A model generated the notes under the pieces. The model was given only the letters and a program-made list of their open reading frames with translations. It ran no database searches and was not told the DNA's origin. Shown here piece after piece: positions 10,713 through 46,530 of a DNA stretch of 52,084 nt (its first letter is position 1; each line of letters starts with the position of its first letter). Position numbers and translations under genes: made by a program. The stretch covers positions 1-52,084 of the forward strand of contig JAEFAM010000008.1 in NCBI GenBank assembly GCA_016287565.1. Reading direction: 5' to 3'. The stretch is from Clostridia bacterium (GTDB taxonomy: Bacteria; Bacillota; Clostridia; UBA1212; UBA1255).

Positions 10713-11570
10713 TCAGCCGTTGGCCAGCCTCCGGGCCAGTTCCGCCAGCTTGCGCTTTTTGTCTGCCAGTTCCTCCGCCGTTAGACCCGCCGGTTTAACG
10801 TTCGTCTCCAGCGAAAACACGCCATCGTAACCTATATCGTGAAGCGCTTTCGAGAAGCTCTGCCAGTCGATGACGCCTGTCTCCGGCAGCCAGTGAAAAT
10901 CGCCGCGGCCGTCGTTGTCGTGAACGTGGAGCACTCTGAGATACCGCCTGCCCGTTTCTCTTACCGCTTCCGCCGGGTCAACGCCGCATACGGCGCAGTG
11001 TCCGGTGTCGATGCACACCCGGAAGTATGGAGAATCGATCTGCTTCACGAAATCCAGTATCTGCCGGGGCGTGGCCAGGGTCAATACGGGCATGGGCATA
11101 TTTTCAAAATCGATCACAACGCCGTACTCTTTTGCCCTTTCTGTGAGCCTCCTGAAAAAGTCCAGATTCATATCCATGAACCGTTCCGGATCCGGATTCT
11201 GGTGGTCGCCGAAAGGCATGATGGGGTGGATGACCATGTCCGCCGAGCCCAGCATTGCCGTGCCTTCGAGCGAACGCACCATCTTTTCAAACCGCTCCCG
11301 CCTGTTCTCCTCGGTGCCGTCCTGAGGAGGCCAGCGCCAGGGCCCGTGGGTCTGGGAAACGGTTACGCCCGCGTGCTCCGCCGCATTCCGCACCACGCGC
11401 AGCAGCTTCTGCATATCTTTGGAGTTTCCCTGAAAAAATATATTTTCGGTGTGGCAAAAAGATTGAAAGTCAACGCAGTCGTACCCCAGCGCCTTGATCT
11501 CCGTCAACACTTTTTCCGCGTCGTCTACTGTGGCCTCGGGGCACCATTCGATTCCGGTCCTCATTGTCAT
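10713..11570 (-). CDS. Sugar phosphate isomerase/epimerase family TIM-barrel protein
   Basis: 285 aa of the xylose isomerase-like TIM-barrel superfamily (AP endonuclease 2 family). Recognisable metal-site segments are VIDFENM, CIDTGHC, VLHVHDNDG and FSLETNVKP, which supply the Glu, Asp, His and Glu ligands typical of the family. It is probably cytoplasmic and acts on a sugar, inositol or related polyol; the exact substrate cannot be assigned. The start has RBS AAGGAGAAATG. The upstream side of the gene is the AGCTAAATT hairpin array, which begins about 12 bp before the start codon and therefore lies in its promoter/leader region. Confidence 0.85.
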   Translation of the reverse strand: MTMRTGIEWCPEATVDDAEKVLTEIKALGYDCVDFQSFCHTENIFFQGNSKDMQKLLRVVRNAAEHAGVTVSQTHGPWRWPPQDGTEENRRERFEKMVRSLEGTAMLGSADMVIHPIMPFGDHQNPDPERFMDMNLDFFRRLTERAKEYGVVIDFENMPMPVLTLATPRQILDFVKQIDSPYFRVCIDTGHCAVCGVDPAEAVRETGRRYLRVLHVHDNDGRGDFHWLPETGVIDWQSFSKALHDIGYDGVFSLETNVKPAGLTAEELADKKRKLAELARRLANG

Positions 11571-11582
11571 TTCTCCTTATCA

Positions 11583-11800
11583 AGCTAAATTCGTCCTGCG
11601 GACGAGCTAAATTGACCTTCGGTCAGCTAAATTCGCGCTGGCACGCGAGCTAAATTGCCGCTTTTCGCGGCAGCTAAATTCGTCCTTCGGACGAGCTAAA
11701 TTGACCTTCGGTCAGCTAAATTCGCGCTGGCGTGCGAGCTAAATTGCCGCTTACAGCGGCAGCTAAATTCGTCCTGCGGACGAGCTAAATTGACCTTTGA
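11583..11800. repeat. Hairpin array with AGCTAAATT spacers
   Basis: Ten copies of AGCTAAATT separate short perfect or near-perfect inverted repeats. Four stem types recur in fixed order: CGTCC/GGACG, GACC/GGTC, CGCGC/GCGCG-like, GCCGC/GCGGC. The set runs twice in full and starts a third time. Higher-order period is about 89-98 bp. Loops differ between copies (CTGCG versus CTTCG, CTTTTCG versus CTTACAG) while stems stay paired, including one compensated pair (GCACGCG versus GCGTGCG). The array fills the gap between the isomerase start and the rpmB terminator. It is not a CRISPR: the spacers are constant and the repeats are the hairpins. Confidence 0.9.
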
Positions 11801-11825
11801 GATCAATGCGTTTTTTCTTATAAAC

Positions 11826-11855
11826 GAAAAATACGATCCTTTTCTTGAGGATCGC
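11826..11855 (-). terminator. Probable rho-independent terminator of rpmB
   Basis: On the minus strand, CGATCC and GGATCG (6 bp, 9-nt loop) are followed by TATTTTTC. It lies about 35 bp downstream of the rpmB stop and just before the hairpin array. Confidence 0.65.
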
Positions 11856-11888
11856 ATTAATCTTCTTTACGATATAGACGCCTGCTCA

Positions 11889-12110
11889 TTATTCGGCAAT
11901 CTTCTGCTCTTTAACAGCTCTGTTCACCTTACCGGATCTGAGGCATGCTGTGCAGACATAAGCGTAACGGGGTGTCTGTCCGTCCATGATCTTTACGCGG
12001 CGCACGTTGGGTTTCCAGTTTCTCTTAGCGCGTCTGCTGACCTGGGAACGGGTGATGCTGATATGGCGGCCGTAAAGCATTCCTTTTGTACAAAACTCGC
12101 ACTTTGCCAT
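11889..12110 (-). CDS. rpmB: 50S ribosomal protein L28
   Basis: 73 aa, cytoplasmic, component of the large ribosomal subunit. The N-terminus MAKCEFCTKG and a later CTAC supply two CxxC pairs, marking the zinc-binding (C+) form of L28. The core KRNWKPNVRRVK is typical. The start is preceded by AAGGAGGTG. It is monocistronic with its own promoter and terminator, and divergent from rsmD. Confidence 0.97.
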   Translation of the reverse strand: MAKCEFCTKGMLYGRHISITRSQVSRRAKRNWKPNVRRVKIMDGQTPRYAYVCTACLRSGKVNRAVKEQKIAE

Positions 12111-28222: not shown

Positions 28223-30850
28223 TCAATCGCTGCCGGGGCCCGGCGTGGGAGACGGTTCGGGGAGCGCGGTCGGCGTCGTCAACGGCGTGGCGGCGGGAGT
28301 TGCCGCGGGAGTGGCCTCCGGCGTTGCCCCGGGAGTGGCCTCCGGAGTATCTGAAGGCGTTGCCGCAGGCGTTCCCGTGGGGAATTGCGCGGGAGTGGCT
28401 TCAGGTCCGGGCGTAGGAGTAGATTCGGGCGGCGTTGTGGGCGTAGTTTCCGGCCCCGGCGTAGGAGTCGCTTCCGGCGGCAGCGTAGGCTCCTCCGTGG
28501 GAGGCACGGGCTCCGACAGATCGTATCCCAGCGATCCGAAATACTCGTCCATCTGGGCGTCGGACAATCCGAAATACGCCTTGATATCCCTCAAAACGGT
28601 GATATTCCTTCTGCCGTCCCTTATTATATCCTTCATCTTCTCCAGCCATTCGTACCAGCGCTCCACCGTCATGCCGTACCTGGCCTGGTTCATAGCGATC
28701 TCAGGCTCCATTATAGACACGAACCAGTCTATCTTCGCCATTATGGCAGTTTCGTTCAGCACGGTCCCCATGAGCTGGGCGTAGCGTTTCAGGAACATGT
28801 CCCGGAACAGGGGATTGGTGATCAGCCGCTTCATGAGAGAGCTGTTGGGGCCGTTGACGATGACGTTGTTGATGGAGTCGGTGCGGTCGGTCCAGAAGGC
28901 CCAGTCGAGGTCGAAATAGCACCAGCGCCACTTGCCGTCGGCCTCGTCGGACTGGAAGAAACGGGCGTTGGCCAGGTCGTTGTCACCCATATAGGAGCGG
29001 CAGACGTACCAGTCGATCAGGCTGTAAATGTCCACCTGCCCGGTCACGTAGGCCAGATTGTCTATTTTGGTCATATCGTGGGTGCGGCAATAGTTCAGCA
29101 ATTCCGAATATTTCGCCTTGTCCCCGTCCTCCACCTTGCCGTAGGCCCTCAGCACGTTCACGGACTCTTCCGAAACGCCTCCCAGCCTGCGGGCGAAATG
29201 GTCCCGGTCGTACCGCTCCCGAAGGAAGTATATGCCGTGGTACTGACCGTTCAGGTACAGTATCACCGGGCGGCAGGCCAGCACGTCCAGGTTGGTATAC
29301 CCGTCGATCAGCGTGGTGCACAGCTCGTCCCGGAAGCCGCAATAAATGTAATCTTCGCTGCCTCCCTTAAGAAGGAGCGAATTGAATATATCCACTTCTC
29401 TGTTGTCGAACAGCTTGCAGTGCAGCTTGGAAAGGCCGTAATCCGAGCGGAACCTCAGCTGGAAATTCTGCTTCTCGCCCAGTTTGCTGTCGTTGCCGTG
29501 GAGTTTAAACCCGCAGGGCGCCGAAAACACCTCTTTCCCGTCCTCCATCAGCGTAACGTAGGAAACGTGCTCGTACTCCGGCTCCACGTGGTTGAGGACT
29601 CCCTCCGGGCCCGTGAGATACTCCTGTCGGATGGCAACGTTCACCACCGGCAGCGTGTGGTCTATCCCCACCATATAGAAGAAGGACGTCTCCCGGCTGC
29701 GCTTCATTCCGTCGATGCACACCGCCCGTATGGATACGATGCCGTCAACGTTTATTGGCCCCGTATACTTCTTAGACGAAACGTCAGGTTCCGTGCCGTC
29801 GGTGGTATAATACACGGTCCCCTGCCCGGTCAATTCGACAGTGAATGGGCTGTCGTATGCGCCTGTGGCAACGTCGGCTTTCGGCATCGAGAGCGTGTAC
29901 GTGTAGCCCGGCGCGTTCGACCGTCCCGGAGTGGCTACGGCCATATATACGAAGCCCTCGGGGCCCCGCCCGTAGCTCTCGTTCTTCTTAAGGTCCCCGG
30001 GCACTTCCACCGTGTCGATGATGCCGCCCGGGCCGCTTAAATAGATCTTTTCGCCCGAGGCGCTGATCTTGAAGGGCGCTCCGGTATCCGCGGTCTCTCC
30101 CGTACAGTAGATGACTATGAACTGTCCCGCGTCAAGCTTCATGTCCGGCAGCCTGTATTTCTGCAATTTAGACTTTTTATCCGAAAGATAATATTTCGAA
30201 AGGTCCACGGGGGAGGAAGTATTGTTGTATATCTCCACGAGATCGTAGCAGTTGCCGTCGGGAGCCGGGAACCTGTCGTTGGAGGCCATCACTTCCGTGA
30301 TCACCAGGTCGGGAAGGCCGGGGAATATATTCATTACAGGCGCTCCGGTCGGCGTGGGGGCGACGGTGGGAGTGGGACTTTCCGTGGGAGAAGTCTGGGG
30401 AAGGCCTGTCCCGCGTGGCGCCGTGGGAGTTGCGGGCCGCTTCGTGGCCGTGGGAGCCGGTATTTTAGTGGGCGACGGAGAGGGAGTATGCGTCGGAGAA
30501 GGCGTCCGCGAGGGGGCGGGAGAGGAGGTCTGAGAGGAAAGCGGTGAGGCCGCAGCGGTATCGACCGGAGAATAAGATGCGTCTGTGGGCGCGGGACCGG
30601 TCTCCCCGGTAACTATTGCCGTCGCTAACGCCGTTGACGCCGCCGTCGTTTCGGGGCCGTCAGATACGGGAGCGAAAGTGGGAAGAGACGAGGAAGGCGC
30701 GCCGGTGGGGACGTTGACCACGGGAGCCTCGGTAGGCTCGCTGCCCGGCAAATAATCGCACGCCGAAAAGACCGCGGCTGACAATACCAGCGCGGCGGCG
30801 ACGGACGATATGGCGGTTAGAGACGGTTTCCTGTTTTTAGCGTTTTTCAT
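28223..30850 (-). CDS. CotH-kinase lipoprotein with lamin-tail domain and Pro/Thr-rich stalks
   Basis: 875 aa. Lipoprotein signal with lipobox FSAC near residue 30. Pro/Thr/Ser-rich stretch about 38-175. A lamin-tail domain (LVITEVMASNDRF, DLVEIYNNTSSPVDLSKYYL) spans about 180-300, then a chitobiase-C-like segment (VYYTTDGTEPDVSSKKYTG) about 330-390. A CotH kinase domain covers about 395-760 (KLHGNDSKLGEKQNFQLRF, YHGIYFLRERYDRDHF, WRWCYFDLDWAFW). The C-terminus is a Pro-Glu-Ala-Thr repeat. CotH proteins phosphorylate secreted proteins (known for spore coat CotH); here a lipid-anchored surface form is predicted. Only 67 bp separate it from the AAA-M41 gene upstream of it. Confidence 0.88.
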   Translation of the reverse strand: MKNAKNRKPSLTAISSVAAALVLSAAVFSACDYLPGSEPTEAPVVNVPTGAPSSSLPTFAPVSDGPETTAASTALATAIVTGETGPAPTDASYSPVDTAAASPLSSQTSSPAPSRTPSPTHTPSPSPTKIPAPTATKRPATPTAPRGTGLPQTSPTESPTPTVAPTPTGAPVMNIFPGLPDLVITEVMASNDRFPAPDGNCYDLVEIYNNTSSPVDLSKYYLSDKKSKLQKYRLPDMKLDAGQFIVIYCTGETADTGAPFKISASGEKIYLSGPGGIIDTVEVPGDLKKNESYGRGPEGFVYMAVATPGRSNAPGYTYTLSMPKADVATGAYDSPFTVELTGQGTVYYTTDGTEPDVSSKKYTGPINVDGIVSIRAVCIDGMKRSRETSFFYMVGIDHTLPVVNVAIRQEYLTGPEGVLNHVEPEYEHVSYVTLMEDGKEVFSAPCGFKLHGNDSKLGEKQNFQLRFRSDYGLSKLHCKLFDNREVDIFNSLLLKGGSEDYIYCGFRDELCTTLIDGYTNLDVLACRPVILYLNGQYHGIYFLRERYDRDHFARRLGGVSEESVNVLRAYGKVEDGDKAKYSELLNYCRTHDMTKIDNLAYVTGQVDIYSLIDWYVCRSYMGDNDLANARFFQSDEADGKWRWCYFDLDWAFWTDRTDSINNVIVNGPNSSLMKRLITNPLFRDMFLKRYAQLMGTVLNETAIMAKIDWFVSIMEPEIAMNQARYGMTVERWYEWLEKMKDIIRDGRRNITVLRDIKAYFGLSDAQMDEYFGSLGYDLSEPVPPTEEPTLPPEATPTPGPETTPTTPPESTPTPGPEATPAQFPTGTPAATPSDTPEATPGATPEATPAATPAATPLTTPTALPEPSPTPGPGSD

Positions 30851-34306: not shown

Positions 34307-34522
34307 ATGCTGGGCTGGCTTCAGGAGAATATAGGCACGATAATAGTGCTGGCGGTACTGGCGGCGATCATTGCCGGAGCCGTGATCGTGGTGGTCCGCG
34401 ACAAAAAGCGGGGCAAGGCGATCTGCGGCGGCAGCTGCTGCTCCGGCGGCTGCGGCAATTGCCCCATGCACGGGAAGTGCCATCCGATCTCCGAGGAGAT
34501 CAATTCCTCATCGCAAAGCTAA
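34307..34522 (+). CDS. FeoB-associated Cys-rich membrane protein
   Basis: 71 aa. A single membrane helix (TIIVLAVLAAIIAGAVIVVVV-like, about residues 11-30) is followed by a basic stretch and a cysteine-rich tail CGGSCCSGGCGNCPMHGKC (six Cys, one His). This matches the small FeoB-associated Cys-rich proteins found after feoB in Clostridia, thought to handle iron or hold the transporter complex. RBS AAAGGAGGG. Its TAA stop is formed by the first AGCTAAATT spacer of the following hairpin array. Confidence 0.9.
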   Translation: MLGWLQENIGTIIVLAVLAAIIAGAVIVVVRDKKRGKAICGGSCCSGGCGNCPMHGKCHPISEEINSSSQS

Positions 34523-34740
34523 ATTCGGCCTGACGGCCGAGCTAAATTGAAAACCGCAGGCTTTCAGTGACAATGGAGCCTGCGGTTTTCAGCGAAATTG
34601 ACCCCTGACAGTTTATATGAAATTGTCAGGGGTCAGCTAAATTCGCACTGGTGTGCGAGCGAAATTGCCGCTTTGCGGCAGCTAAATTGAAAGCCGACGG
34701 CTTTCAGCTTAATACATCCTGCGGACGAGCTAAGTCGGGT
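34517..34740. repeat. Hairpin array, AGCTAAATT type, after the feo operon
   Basis: AGCTAAATT (with variants AGCGAAATT, AGCTTAATA) separates inverted repeats: CGGCC/GGCCG, a 14-bp stem at 34549-34590 (GAAAACCGCAGGCT), an 11-bp stem at 34600-34634 (GACCCCTGACA), CGCAC/GTGCG, GCCGC/GCGGC, GAAAGCC/GGCTTTC and a degraded CGTCC/GGACG. Several stems equal those of the array at 11.6 kb. The two long stems could also terminate the feo transcript, though no U tract follows. Confidence 0.87.
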
Positions 34741-35110
34741 TCACTTTCTCGCTCATTTTGAGCCTTCGGGCAGAGCGTCCTTCTTTCAAACGCCAAGAAT
34801 CAAGGGGGTAAGTGGTAAATTCTGGGCGTTTCTTGCTCATTTTTTGTTGTCGGGCGGTGCAGCTTCATTCCAAACGCCAAGAAATCCGAGTTAAGGGGCA
34901 AATTCTGGGTGTTTCTCGCTCGTTTGCGGCTTCAGAGGCAGCTCCGCTTCTTCCAAAACGCCCAGAAAATTGAGACAAACGGCAAAAAATGGGTGTTTCT
35001 CGCTCTTCGCAGTTTCAGAGACAGCGCCGCCTCTCCCAAAACGCCCAAAAAATCGAGACAGACGGCAAAATATGGGCGTTTCTCGCTCGGCTCGCCTTTC
35101 GAGACAGAGC
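34741..35110. repeat. Tandem array of 82-84-nt hairpin-plus-linker units (locus 1)
   Basis: Four hairpins of about 44 nt begin at 34788, 34872, 34956 and 35038 with AAACGCC and close with GGCGTTT or GGTGTTT. Each is followed by CTCGCTC or TTGCTCAT and a linker of about 40 nt rich in GCTTC, CAGAG and CTCC. An extra linker copy precedes the first hairpin. Period is 84, 84 and 82 nt. The region has no convincing coding potential; open frames across it change with repeat phase. Confidence 0.85.
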
Positions 35111-35142
35111 AGGGGTCCTGGTATGAGCAAAGGAAGTGTTTC

Positions 35143-35394
35143 GCTGCCGCATCGCGGCAATTTAGCTGAATCCTGACAGCTCGAATGTATCGGACCGTCA
35201 GGGTTCAACATCACTCGCCGCAGGCGAATCTCACTCGTGCGTCAGCACGAACATCACTCCGCGAAGCGGAATATCACTGCGCTCCAGCGCAATCTCACTC
35301 GCCGCAGGCGAATCTCACTCGTGCGTCAGCACGAATCTCACTCGCCGCAGACGAATATCACTGCGCTCCGGCGCGAATCTCACTCCCGTAACGA
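35143..35394. repeat. Hairpin array, AATTTAGCT then ATATCAC/ATCTCAC spacers
   Basis: It begins with TGCCGCATCGCGGCA plus ATTTAGCT (the complement orientation of the 34.5-kb spacer) and a long imperfect stem at 35170-35206. Eight hairpins follow, separated by AATATCAC, AATCTCAC or AACATCAC. Stem order is CGCCG, CGTGCG, CCGCG, GCGCTC, CGCCG, CGTGCG, CGCCG, GCGCTC. All hairpins start with T and end with A or G. The array stops at the LD-carboxypeptidase stop codon. Confidence 0.87.
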
Positions 35395-37491: not shown

Positions 37492-37668
37492 TTCGTCCGC
37501 GCTCCTTCCGGTATCGATCTCGGTCAAATTATAGCTTATTCGCCGCGGCCGTTTCAAGCGGTGGCGCGATGGCGGTCAAAGAGTCCGGGCTGTGGCGGCC
37601 CATGCGTTCGCCTGCCGTGGATCCGGGCGGCCGTGCGCTGCCTTGAAGCTTAAAATCGGCGCGAAATA

Positions 37669-37826
37669 AATCACTGCGCGCCAGCGCAATATCACTCCGC
37701 GCAGCGGAATATCACTCGTGCGCCGGCACGAATTTAGCTGCCGCAACGTGGCAATTTCGCTCGGCGCAGCCGAATTTAGCTGAACACTGACAATCTTGCT
37801 TAATAGTCAGTGTTCAATTTAGCTGC
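37669..37826. repeat. Composite hairpin array joining ATATCAC and ATTTAGC spacers
   Basis: Six hairpins in order: TGCGC/GCGCA, TCCGC/GCGGA, TCGTGC/GCACGA, TGCCGC/GTGGCA, TCGGC/GCCGA and a long TGAACACTGAC stem at 37781-37817. Spacers switch from ATATCAC to ATTTAGC (once ATTTCGC). The first three stems match those of the 35.2-kb array. The flanking DNA (37558-37668) shows nothing recognisable. Confidence 0.87.
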
Positions 37827-45787: not shown

Positions 45788-45944
45788 GAAATGGCAAATG
45801 GCAAATTGAAAATGGCAAATGGCAAATGGCAAATTGAAAATGGCAAATGGCAAATGGCAAATGGCAAATTGAAAATGGCAAATGGCAAATGGCAAATTGA
45901 AAATGGCAAATGGCAAATTGCAAGTTGAAAGCGATAAATTGGAT
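45788..45944 (+). repeat. Left block of AATGGCA heptamer repeats beside the four-helix-bundle gene
   Basis: AATGGCA heptamers occur in runs of two to four, each run closed by AATTGAA. The pattern decays into AATTGCAAGTTGAAAGCG toward the gene. It begins directly after the DUF362 stop codon. The right block (46440-46530) carries the complementary sequence in opposite orientation. Confidence 0.88.
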
Positions 45945-46373
45945 GTGATAAATAGCAAGTGATTAAGGGCGAAGGGAAATTGGTTTTTCGGGATATGGAT
46001 AATCTGATCGAGAACAAAAGTTTTGATTTTGCTGTCAGGATCGTAAAACTGAGCCAGTTCCTTAATGAGCAGAAGAAAGAATTTGTCATATCGAAACAGA
46101 TTCTTCGTTCCGGCACAAGCATAGGCGCCAACGTTGCCGAAGCGCAGCAGGGACAAAGCCACGCGGATTTCATTTCGAAGATGAACATTGCGCTAAAAGA
46201 GGCAGCGGAGACAAAGTACTGGATCCGCCTTTTAGAAGCGACAGGATATTTGACGGAGACCGAGACGGAGGCCCTCCTTGCGGAGTGTGTCAAAATCGAA
46301 AAAATACTCTATTCGATCGTCCGCACATCGAAAATAAAGAAATGATTTGCAACCTCCGATTTTTATTTATCAC
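45945..46373. mobile_element. Candidate IVS-like element: four-helix-bundle gene inside a 10-bp inverted repeat
   Basis: GTGATAAATA at 45945-45954 and its exact complement TATTTATCAC at 46364-46373 bracket the four-helix-bundle gene. Outside them lie oppositely oriented repeat blocks. The internal GC content is visibly lower than that of neighbouring genes. No transposase or target duplication is seen, so mobility is inferred from structure only. Confidence 0.5.
45995..46345 (+). CDS. Four-helix-bundle protein (TIGR02436 / 23S IVS-encoded family)
   Basis: 116 aa, small, helical, no membrane segment. NLIENKSFDFAVRIVKLSQFL, SKQILRSGTSIGANVAEAQ (as two segments), KMNIALKEAAETKYWIRLL are clear signatures of the family first seen in 23S rRNA intervening sequences and related to Avd of diversity-generating retroelements. 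Those proteins form pentameric, nucleic-acid-binding bundles (family knowledge). The ATG at 45995 gives the usual MDN-type N-terminus; the frame is open from a GTG at 45959. It lies between oppositely oriented repeat blocks, with no rRNA or reverse transcriptase nearby. Confidence 0.9.
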   Translation: MDNLIENKSFDFAVRIVKLSQFLNEQKKEFVISKQILRSGTSIGANVAEAQQGQSHADFISKMNIALKEAAETKYWIRLLEATGYLTETETEALLAECVKIEKILYSIVRTSKIKK

Positions 46374-46375
46374 TT

Positions 46376-46530
46376 AAAAATTGCAAATTGCAAATTGAAA
46401 ATTGAAAGATAAGAATTGCAAATTGAGAATGAGAAAAGGAAATCATCATTTCCCATTTACCATTTCCAATTTGCCATTTCCCATTTGCCACTTGCCATTT
46501 GCCATTTCCCATTTGCAATTTGCCATTTAT
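46376..46530 (-). repeat. Right block of repeats, inverted relative to the left block
   Basis: AATTGCA/AATTGAA units (46376-46426) are followed from 46450 by TGCCATT heptamers and TCCCATT variants, the complement of the left-hand AATGGCA units. It stops 20 bp before the trmL start. Repeated TTGCCA hexamers near TATAAA (46527-46532) could supply a trmL promoter (weak inference). Confidence 0.83.

Follow-up and report, generated by a model that had tools for sequence, protein, structure and literature searches.

Introduction

The closest parallel to the element described in this work is the rRNA intervening sequence (IVS) of Coxiella, which contains an S23 open reading frame, inverted repeats at its ends and, upstream of S23, repeated heptamers (PMC4990558). 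The S23 protein of Xanthomonas is a pentamer of four-helix bundles, according to work cited in the same article (PMC4990558). More generally, IVSs occupy helix 25 or 45 of 23S rRNA, have stem-forming inverted ends and a PF05635 (S23/IVP) protein, and have been described as selfish elements. Another hairpin family, Gut-1 (Rfam RF01706), was described in 2010 as a likely noncoding RNA, in human gut sequence only (PMC2864571); it consists of three hairpins with a constant GUGAAAU-type spacer between them. REP/BIME repeats with RAYT genes (REPINs), in turn, are dispersed intergenic palindromes with a cognate protein gene, a Y1 transposase, and non-autonomous copies. The S23/IVP proteins are small and of solved fold; to our knowledge they have neither a known function nor a known catalytic activity, and the Rfam family Gut-1 has no known role. 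The Avd proteins of diversity-generating retroelements form a four-helix-bundle pentamer family that we take to be structurally related to S23; as a difference, an unsystematic look near S23 genes noticed no reverse transcriptase or template/variable repeats.

Here we analyse a hairpin array in a window of 52,084 nucleotides (the whole stretch of DNA examined) from a Clostridia bacterium, whose assembly we call the home genome. We demonstrate the architecture, copy number and lineage-specific insertion of this repeat, its association with S23 genes, and the tracking of S23 subfamily by spacer type. Like the 23S rRNA IVSs, the elements involve a PF05635 protein and inverted ends that form stems, but they are intergenic, in high copy number and built as hairpin combs with clade-specific spacers, and they lie outside rRNA genes: the window array is located between rpmB and an isomerase gene, not in helix 25 or 45 of 23S rRNA. 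They share with REPINs the dispersed intergenic palindromes, the cognate protein gene and the non-autonomous copies, whereas the protein is S23 instead of a Y1 transposase and the spacer is the constant part. The array is probably an orphaned, expanded arm of what we call an S23-comb mobile element.

Architecture of the window array

The array and its parts, all on the forward strand, are the following:

11583..11797, + strand: hairpin array of ten AGCTAAATT spacers and nine hairpins (read directly; repeat analysis; folding)
11583..11671, + strand: first 89-bp block, with hairpins CGTCC, GACC, CGCGC and GCCGC
11672..11760, + strand: second 89-bp block, 93% identical to the first
11792..11804, + strand: decayed terminal (tenth) hairpin, GACCTTTGAGATC (read directly)

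As the original prediction stated, ten exact copies of the 9-nt spacer AGCTAAATT are present (11583-11791), with hairpins between them, and the order CGTCC, GACC, CGCGC, GCCGC runs more than twice, the 89-bp block being present 2.4 times. The predicted row of hairpins holds for nine intact members, the tenth having decayed. Outside each stem the feet are AATT and AGCT. The array folds with an energy of -89.5 kcal/mol, against -66.3 kcal/mol for dinucleotide shuffles (z = -5.05). It had also been claimed that one stem carries a compensated change, and for this we found no case within the array: the two copies of the CGCGC hairpin are distinguished by two substitutions in the 3' arm (A to G, C to T), with the result that one pair is regained and another is weakened to G.T, and the remaining stems do not change between blocks, loops alone being different. 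Compensatory changes are present only between loci and between genomes.

The fixed order of four stem classes is real in this array, although it reflects the tandem duplication of a block and not a general rule. A second locus of the home genome (C68:3156-3252) has the CGTCC-GACC start in common with the window array and then continues with diverged members; the orders at further loci differ, and some of those orders are likewise duplicated. Because the order arises by block duplication, the template-ordered amplification that had been proposed is unsupported. A CRISPR identity was correctly dismissed: CRISPR has constant repeats and variable unpaired spacers, and in the window array the variable part is the hairpin and the constant part is the 9-nt spacer, which had been rightly recognised as such.

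Insertion site

The array lies in the following context:

10713..11570, - strand: sugar-phosphate isomerase-like gene, its start codon toward the array; one flank of the empty site
11826..11859, - strand: intrinsic terminator of rpmB, beside the insertion; kept in four congeners that have no array
11889..12110, - strand: rpmB (ribosomal protein L28; gene identity from sequence), the other flank of the empty site

The order rpmB, terminator, isomerase gene is the same in four congeners, where the array is absent and the gap between rpmB and the isomerase gene measures 75 to about 126 bp, in comparison with about 315 bp in the home genome. The array is therefore a lineage-specific insertion, its junctions being approximate and the flank near the isomerase start codon short and divergent. 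At the mnmA locus the gap is 46 bp in one congener (G004) and 477 bp in the home genome, and three others (G001, G002, G005) are without an array there as well. Absence from close relatives had been named in advance as an observation against the proposal, and it applies in a trivial sense only: the locus is empty in the congeners, yet the AGCTAAATT repeat is abundant genome-wide and is present in many other Clostridia.

Dispersal of the repeat in the home genome

A genome-wide count of the spacer, suggested with the original prediction, found 159 copies of AGCTAAATT in the home genome against 2 of its reversed control, and 68 spaced pairs against none. In a sample of 672 kb, taken as stretches of the home genome, no 9-mer is as over-represented as AGCTAAATT (74 seen, 1.0 expected), and GGGGGACAG-type words, which belong to another repeat, come next, together with AGTGATATT. 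Of the 195 units in the 34 arrays of the same sample, 128 are distinct, and there are several spacer variants whose consensus is AGYKAWATT; mosaic arrays combine AGCTAAATT with the related spacers AGCGAAATT and AGTGATATT. Within one hairpin, 84% of arm positions pair, in comparison with 55% when the arms come from different hairpins. The arrays are intergenic, and frequently they form convergent pairs flanking a core. An example lies in the window (34517-35384), close to a sister array:

34517..34688, + strand: composite element, left arm, made of AGCTAAATT/AGCGAAATT hairpins
34700..35110, no strand assigned: composite element, core, made of ~83-bp units that carry the inverted repeats AAACGCCCA..TGGGCGTTT
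35159..35384, - strand: right arm of the composite element, inverted; Gut-1 match at 35287-35363 (56.3 bits)
37661..37824, - strand: sister array with AGTGATATT, AGCGAAATT and AGCTAAATT spacers; Gut-1 match at 37663-37740 (64.5 bits)

Cores of ~83-bp units are also found elsewhere in the same assembly (G000 C71:21438-21789 and C138:42022-42469), with a conserved edge GAAGGTGGATTT..TTTCGCTCATTTT and no gene within. Between more widely spaced convergent arrays we looked for gene cargo and encountered ordinary genes alone (uvrC, a lipoprotein gene and others), so that these arrays were read as separate insertions. A role as a 3' UTR or terminator element with fixed gene orientation was rejected, since the arrays of the home genome have no orientation bias relative to adjacent genes.

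A dispersed, intergenic and palindromic repeat could be REP-like, with a Y1 (TnpA-REP) transposase moving it in the form of single-stranded DNA, and the home genome does have three Y1_Tnp genes. The loops point in the same direction: among distinct short hairpins, 55 of 86 have a loop that begins with T and ends with C (G...A on the other strand), usually with C-G closure, so that most loops read C-GNA-G or C-GNNA-G on one strand, and such loops are unusually stable in DNA. Against this, AGCTAAATT hairpins border none of the three Y1 genes (one adjoins GGGGACAGACCCC repeats, which form a different family), neither GTAG nor CGTC stands at the foot of the hairpins, and it is the S23 subfamily that predicts which genomes have the repeat (see below). 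We consequently regard this explanation as highly unlikely, and rejected the RAYT/Y1 transposase as the mover because its genes are unassociated with the repeat. The AGCTAAATT repeat is REP-like in working as dispersed palindromes, yet it is no REP family.

Some hairpin arrays (G000 C107, C96 and C131) are placed between inverted GGGGACAG-type REP repeats, as if REPIN-borne. One RAYT gene (C22) adjoins repeats of this GGGGACAG type.

The complete comb and its relation to Gut-1

Spacer pairs of AGCTAAATT occur across public genomes; the matches listed include many gut and rumen Clostridia, and also scattered matches in other phyla that are possibly due to chance. The complete unit in these Clostridia is ~175 bp long and comprises four AGCTAAATT, a centre, four AATTTAGCT and seven variable hairpins. 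In its commonest form, the centre contains one hairpin and is flanked by three more on either side. This 3+3 architecture is complete in 19 of the 39 elements located through the conserved centre, the remainder being mostly truncated, extended or over-read. Two-armed forms are thus represented by these canonical combs and by the composite element at 34517-35384 of the window.

In an alignment of 22 combs, both partners have changed in 20 base pairs, every one of them within hairpins. The RNAalifold consensus of this alignment pairs left spacers with right spacers and places three of the four spacer helices; a single comb folded as RNA forms all four, with -61.1 kcal/mol in comparison with -37.3 kcal/mol for shuffles (z = -6.45). 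Left-right covariation of spacers within the AGCTAAATT family was sought and rejected: the spacers are nearly constant and AGCGAAATT variants have no matching change in the opposite arm, so that spacer pairing rests on complementarity and energy, not covariation. Regarding whether the paired form is RNA or DNA, the hairpins of the alignment have about 6 G.U and 2 A.C mismatches, which are few counts.

Complete combs also give a different reading of Gut-1, whose covariance model has a gathering score of 50 bits. The two sister arrays in the window exceed it (64.5 and 56.3 bits), and the window array, with 37.3 and 35.7 bits, falls under it and at this threshold is not a Gut-1 member. Matches above threshold sit on combs upstream of S23 genes at three loci (L311, L320, L317). 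Gut-1 corresponds to one half of a complete comb: what is annotated as a separate noncoding RNA is half of a larger, two-armed, many-copy element linked to S23, and the public RNA family needs re-reading in this light.

It could be argued instead that the array yields a free-standing, trans-acting hairpin RNA, as Gut-1 is annotated. The sister arrays do match the model above threshold, structure and covariation are strong, and the 2010 description ranks Gut-1 a likely noncoding RNA (PMC2864571). We find this quite unlikely, given that the 79 matches in the home genome, variable and fragmentary, against 0-3 in congeners, are repeat-like and not gene-like, and that the model spans just half of a complete element which precedes S23 genes.

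A neutral origin, in which quasi-palindrome correction and replication slippage would make and multiply the hairpins without any protein, fits the evident block duplications and decayed units and the recurrence of several orders between loci. It leaves unexplained why many genera share the same 9-nt spacer, why the 4+4 layout is fixed and its centre conserved, and why combs are placed upstream of S23 genes; among all the explanations weighed here we judge it the most improbable.

Two features of the combs are noted in passing. One outer hairpin class (L026, L028, L083, L117 and others) has a TC/TC internal loop, with tandem G.A on the other strand; this hairpin, for example GCTCGCTTACGCTCGC, is kept across genomes. 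A conserved flank, AAAGTGTCATAGTGGGTTATTTTCTTTCAGC, lies beside combs in several genomes (L003, L014, L028, L057, L065, L108 and L117) and has a short possible reading frame starting with MTLS.

Association of combs with S23 genes

At L047, L054 and others, a comb and the start codon of a PF05635 (S23) gene are separated by 10 to 43 bp. S23 proteins of the MAESIM type and their relatives are present in 47 of 391 genomes of the class surveyed, and all 16 sampled MAESIM genes having upstream sequence carry a AGCTAAATT comb there. The home genome has such a gene:

C140:10851-11153: MAESIM-type S23 gene of the home genome, between two convergent AGCTAAATT arms

Its product is 69% identical to the L054 protein, and the S23 of the home genome matches the solved chain 2rld (E = 2e-26). 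Other S23 subfamilies have no AGCTAAATT combs, but combs of the same design with spacers of their own: AGTGRTATT, equivalent to the AGTGATATT type of the home genome, for MADSVLR; CATGAATTG for MKENKL; an ATGAAG-type spacer for MREDKL; and a GTGAAATA-type spacer for several MAESKLR genes.

We scored combs by one fixed rule, requiring at least three copies on each side (score of at least 3). This was reached upstream of 53 of 84 S23 genes, in 8 of 82 regions downstream of S23, in none of 84 shuffles, and upstream of 4 of 149 control genes, the latter taken from one genome with a base composition unlike that of the S23 set. The more alike two S23 proteins are, the more alike are their spacers (Mantel r = 0.80; 0 of 5000 permutations), a correlation expected under recognition and equally under co-inheritance of gene and leader. 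At the level of genomes, in counts that include the combs fronting the S23 genes themselves, AGCTAAATT pairs are present in 12 of 13 genomes with a MAESIM S23 and in 19 of 378 others (p = 8e-14), and AGTGRTATT pairs in 8 of 9 genomes with a MADSVLR S23 and in 31 of 382 others (p = 4e-8), while the cross combinations give p values of about 0.08 and 0.09 when genomes with both types are set aside. Copy numbers reach 56-68 in S23-bearing genomes, so most copies in such genomes are away from S23 genes. In 19 genomes, AGCTAAATT pairs are present and no MAESIM S23 was detected; S23 may therefore have been lost later, or be dispensable.

About nine S23-linked combs are directly preceded by a -10-like box and a hairpin, with a ribosome-binding site after the comb, and this arrangement suggests that the S23 mRNA has the comb as its leader. 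Combs could accordingly have a local effect, on the expression of S23 or on the ends of transcripts, the orphan copies having been co-opted by neighbouring genes as leaders, terminators or insulators; several orphan combs do abut terminators. This explanation appears unlikely, since arrays of the home genome show no orientation bias to neighbouring genes and have no T-tracts of their own, and the neighbour genes in congeners manage without an array. The two roles originally suggested for the array, transcribed RNA hairpins and a protein-binding array, are both compatible with the complete element as a structured S23 leader.

Several combs begin directly after terminators, and a terminator is repeated on both sides of a few S23 elements (L283, L298, L324, L322), which suggests a terminator-linked insertion target. 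Flanking direct repeats are found in a minority of cases: 10 of 70 S23 elements against 5 of 276 controls, and 8 of 31 orphan combs against 8 of 119. Such direct repeats, ~40-110 bp long and several of them with an intrinsic terminator, were seen on either side of S23 elements at L283, L298, L324 and L287. In a separate observation, in each S23 subfamily examined (L267, L275, L282, L286) the 5' start of the comb recurs as its reverse complement in a segment of the centre; the complementary pairs AAATTCGC/GCGAATTT, TTTTATTCGCC/GGCGAATAAAA and TGAATTGCC/GGCAATTCA could permit an alternative pairing.

Among the matches listed in open-access searches we found no literature linking S23 to upstream repeats, with the exception of the Coxiella IVS heptamers, and a search with comb spacer sequences turned up nothing relevant in the 15 matches listed out of 715. 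The connection between S23 and combs appears to be new, the open-access absence being weak evidence of this.

A model for the S23-comb element

The window array has a cognate spacer between its hairpins (ten exact AGCTAAATT), is an insertion relative to four empty congeners, and shares its genome with an S23 of the matching subfamily (C140:10851-11153). It is a single arm, lacking the two convergent arms with complementary spacers and a centre. Since it has one arm only, we class it as a derivative, probably a one-armed, expanded and partly decayed form of the S23-comb element.

In the model that we propose, the left spacers of a single-stranded comb would pair with the right ones, the hairpins protruding at four-way junctions. 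S23, as a pentameric four-helix bundle, would bind its cognate comb, probably as RNA within the mRNA leader. Comb-bearing sequence would be copied or moved in trans by another enzyme, its destination being intergenic sites, frequently beside terminators. Orphan arms could then grow by block duplication and decay, and the window array would be such a spent arm that has remained; it may be without present function. Neither a recombinase nor a reverse transcriptase was found alongside the element. The best reading is a REP/RAYT-like organisation with a different protein. It is quite possible, if not yet probable, that S23/IVP proteins in general are trans-acting partners of widespread mobile elements with a clade-specific spacer code, recognised by a comb of four-way junctions that short complementary spacers and variable hairpins build up, that these elements, carrying no known recombinase, move probably in RNA-protein complexes with the help of an enzyme of the cell, and that rRNA IVSs and Gut-1 are fragments of the same system.

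Our results join S23/IVP with Gut-1 and give the protein a testable role, namely the recognition of clade-specific hairpin combs that spread in genomes. They point to a mobile element family that has gone largely undescribed, and make available many natural spacer/protein pairs for recognition studies. If the model is true, an unrelated protein underlies a REP/RAYT-like system, much of the repeat DNA between genes in gut and rumen Clostridia is accounted for, and rRNA intervening sequences become special cases of a wider mobile family.

A second S23 gene in the window

The second S23 gene of the home genome, from another subfamily, lies in the window:

45995..46345, + strand: S23/23S_rRNA_IVP (PF05635) gene

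It is flanked by inverted arrays of 7-mers, AAATGGC at 45789-45923 and CATTTGC at about 46377-46528, and these arms resemble the heptamers upstream of S23 in the Coxiella IVS. The whole region (45789-46528) looks like a hairpin-free version of the S23-comb design, and a similar layout is found in the congener G004 (L246). Elsewhere in the window, degenerate 12/24-bp tandem repeats (GGAGTTGCC...) are present at 28287-28489.
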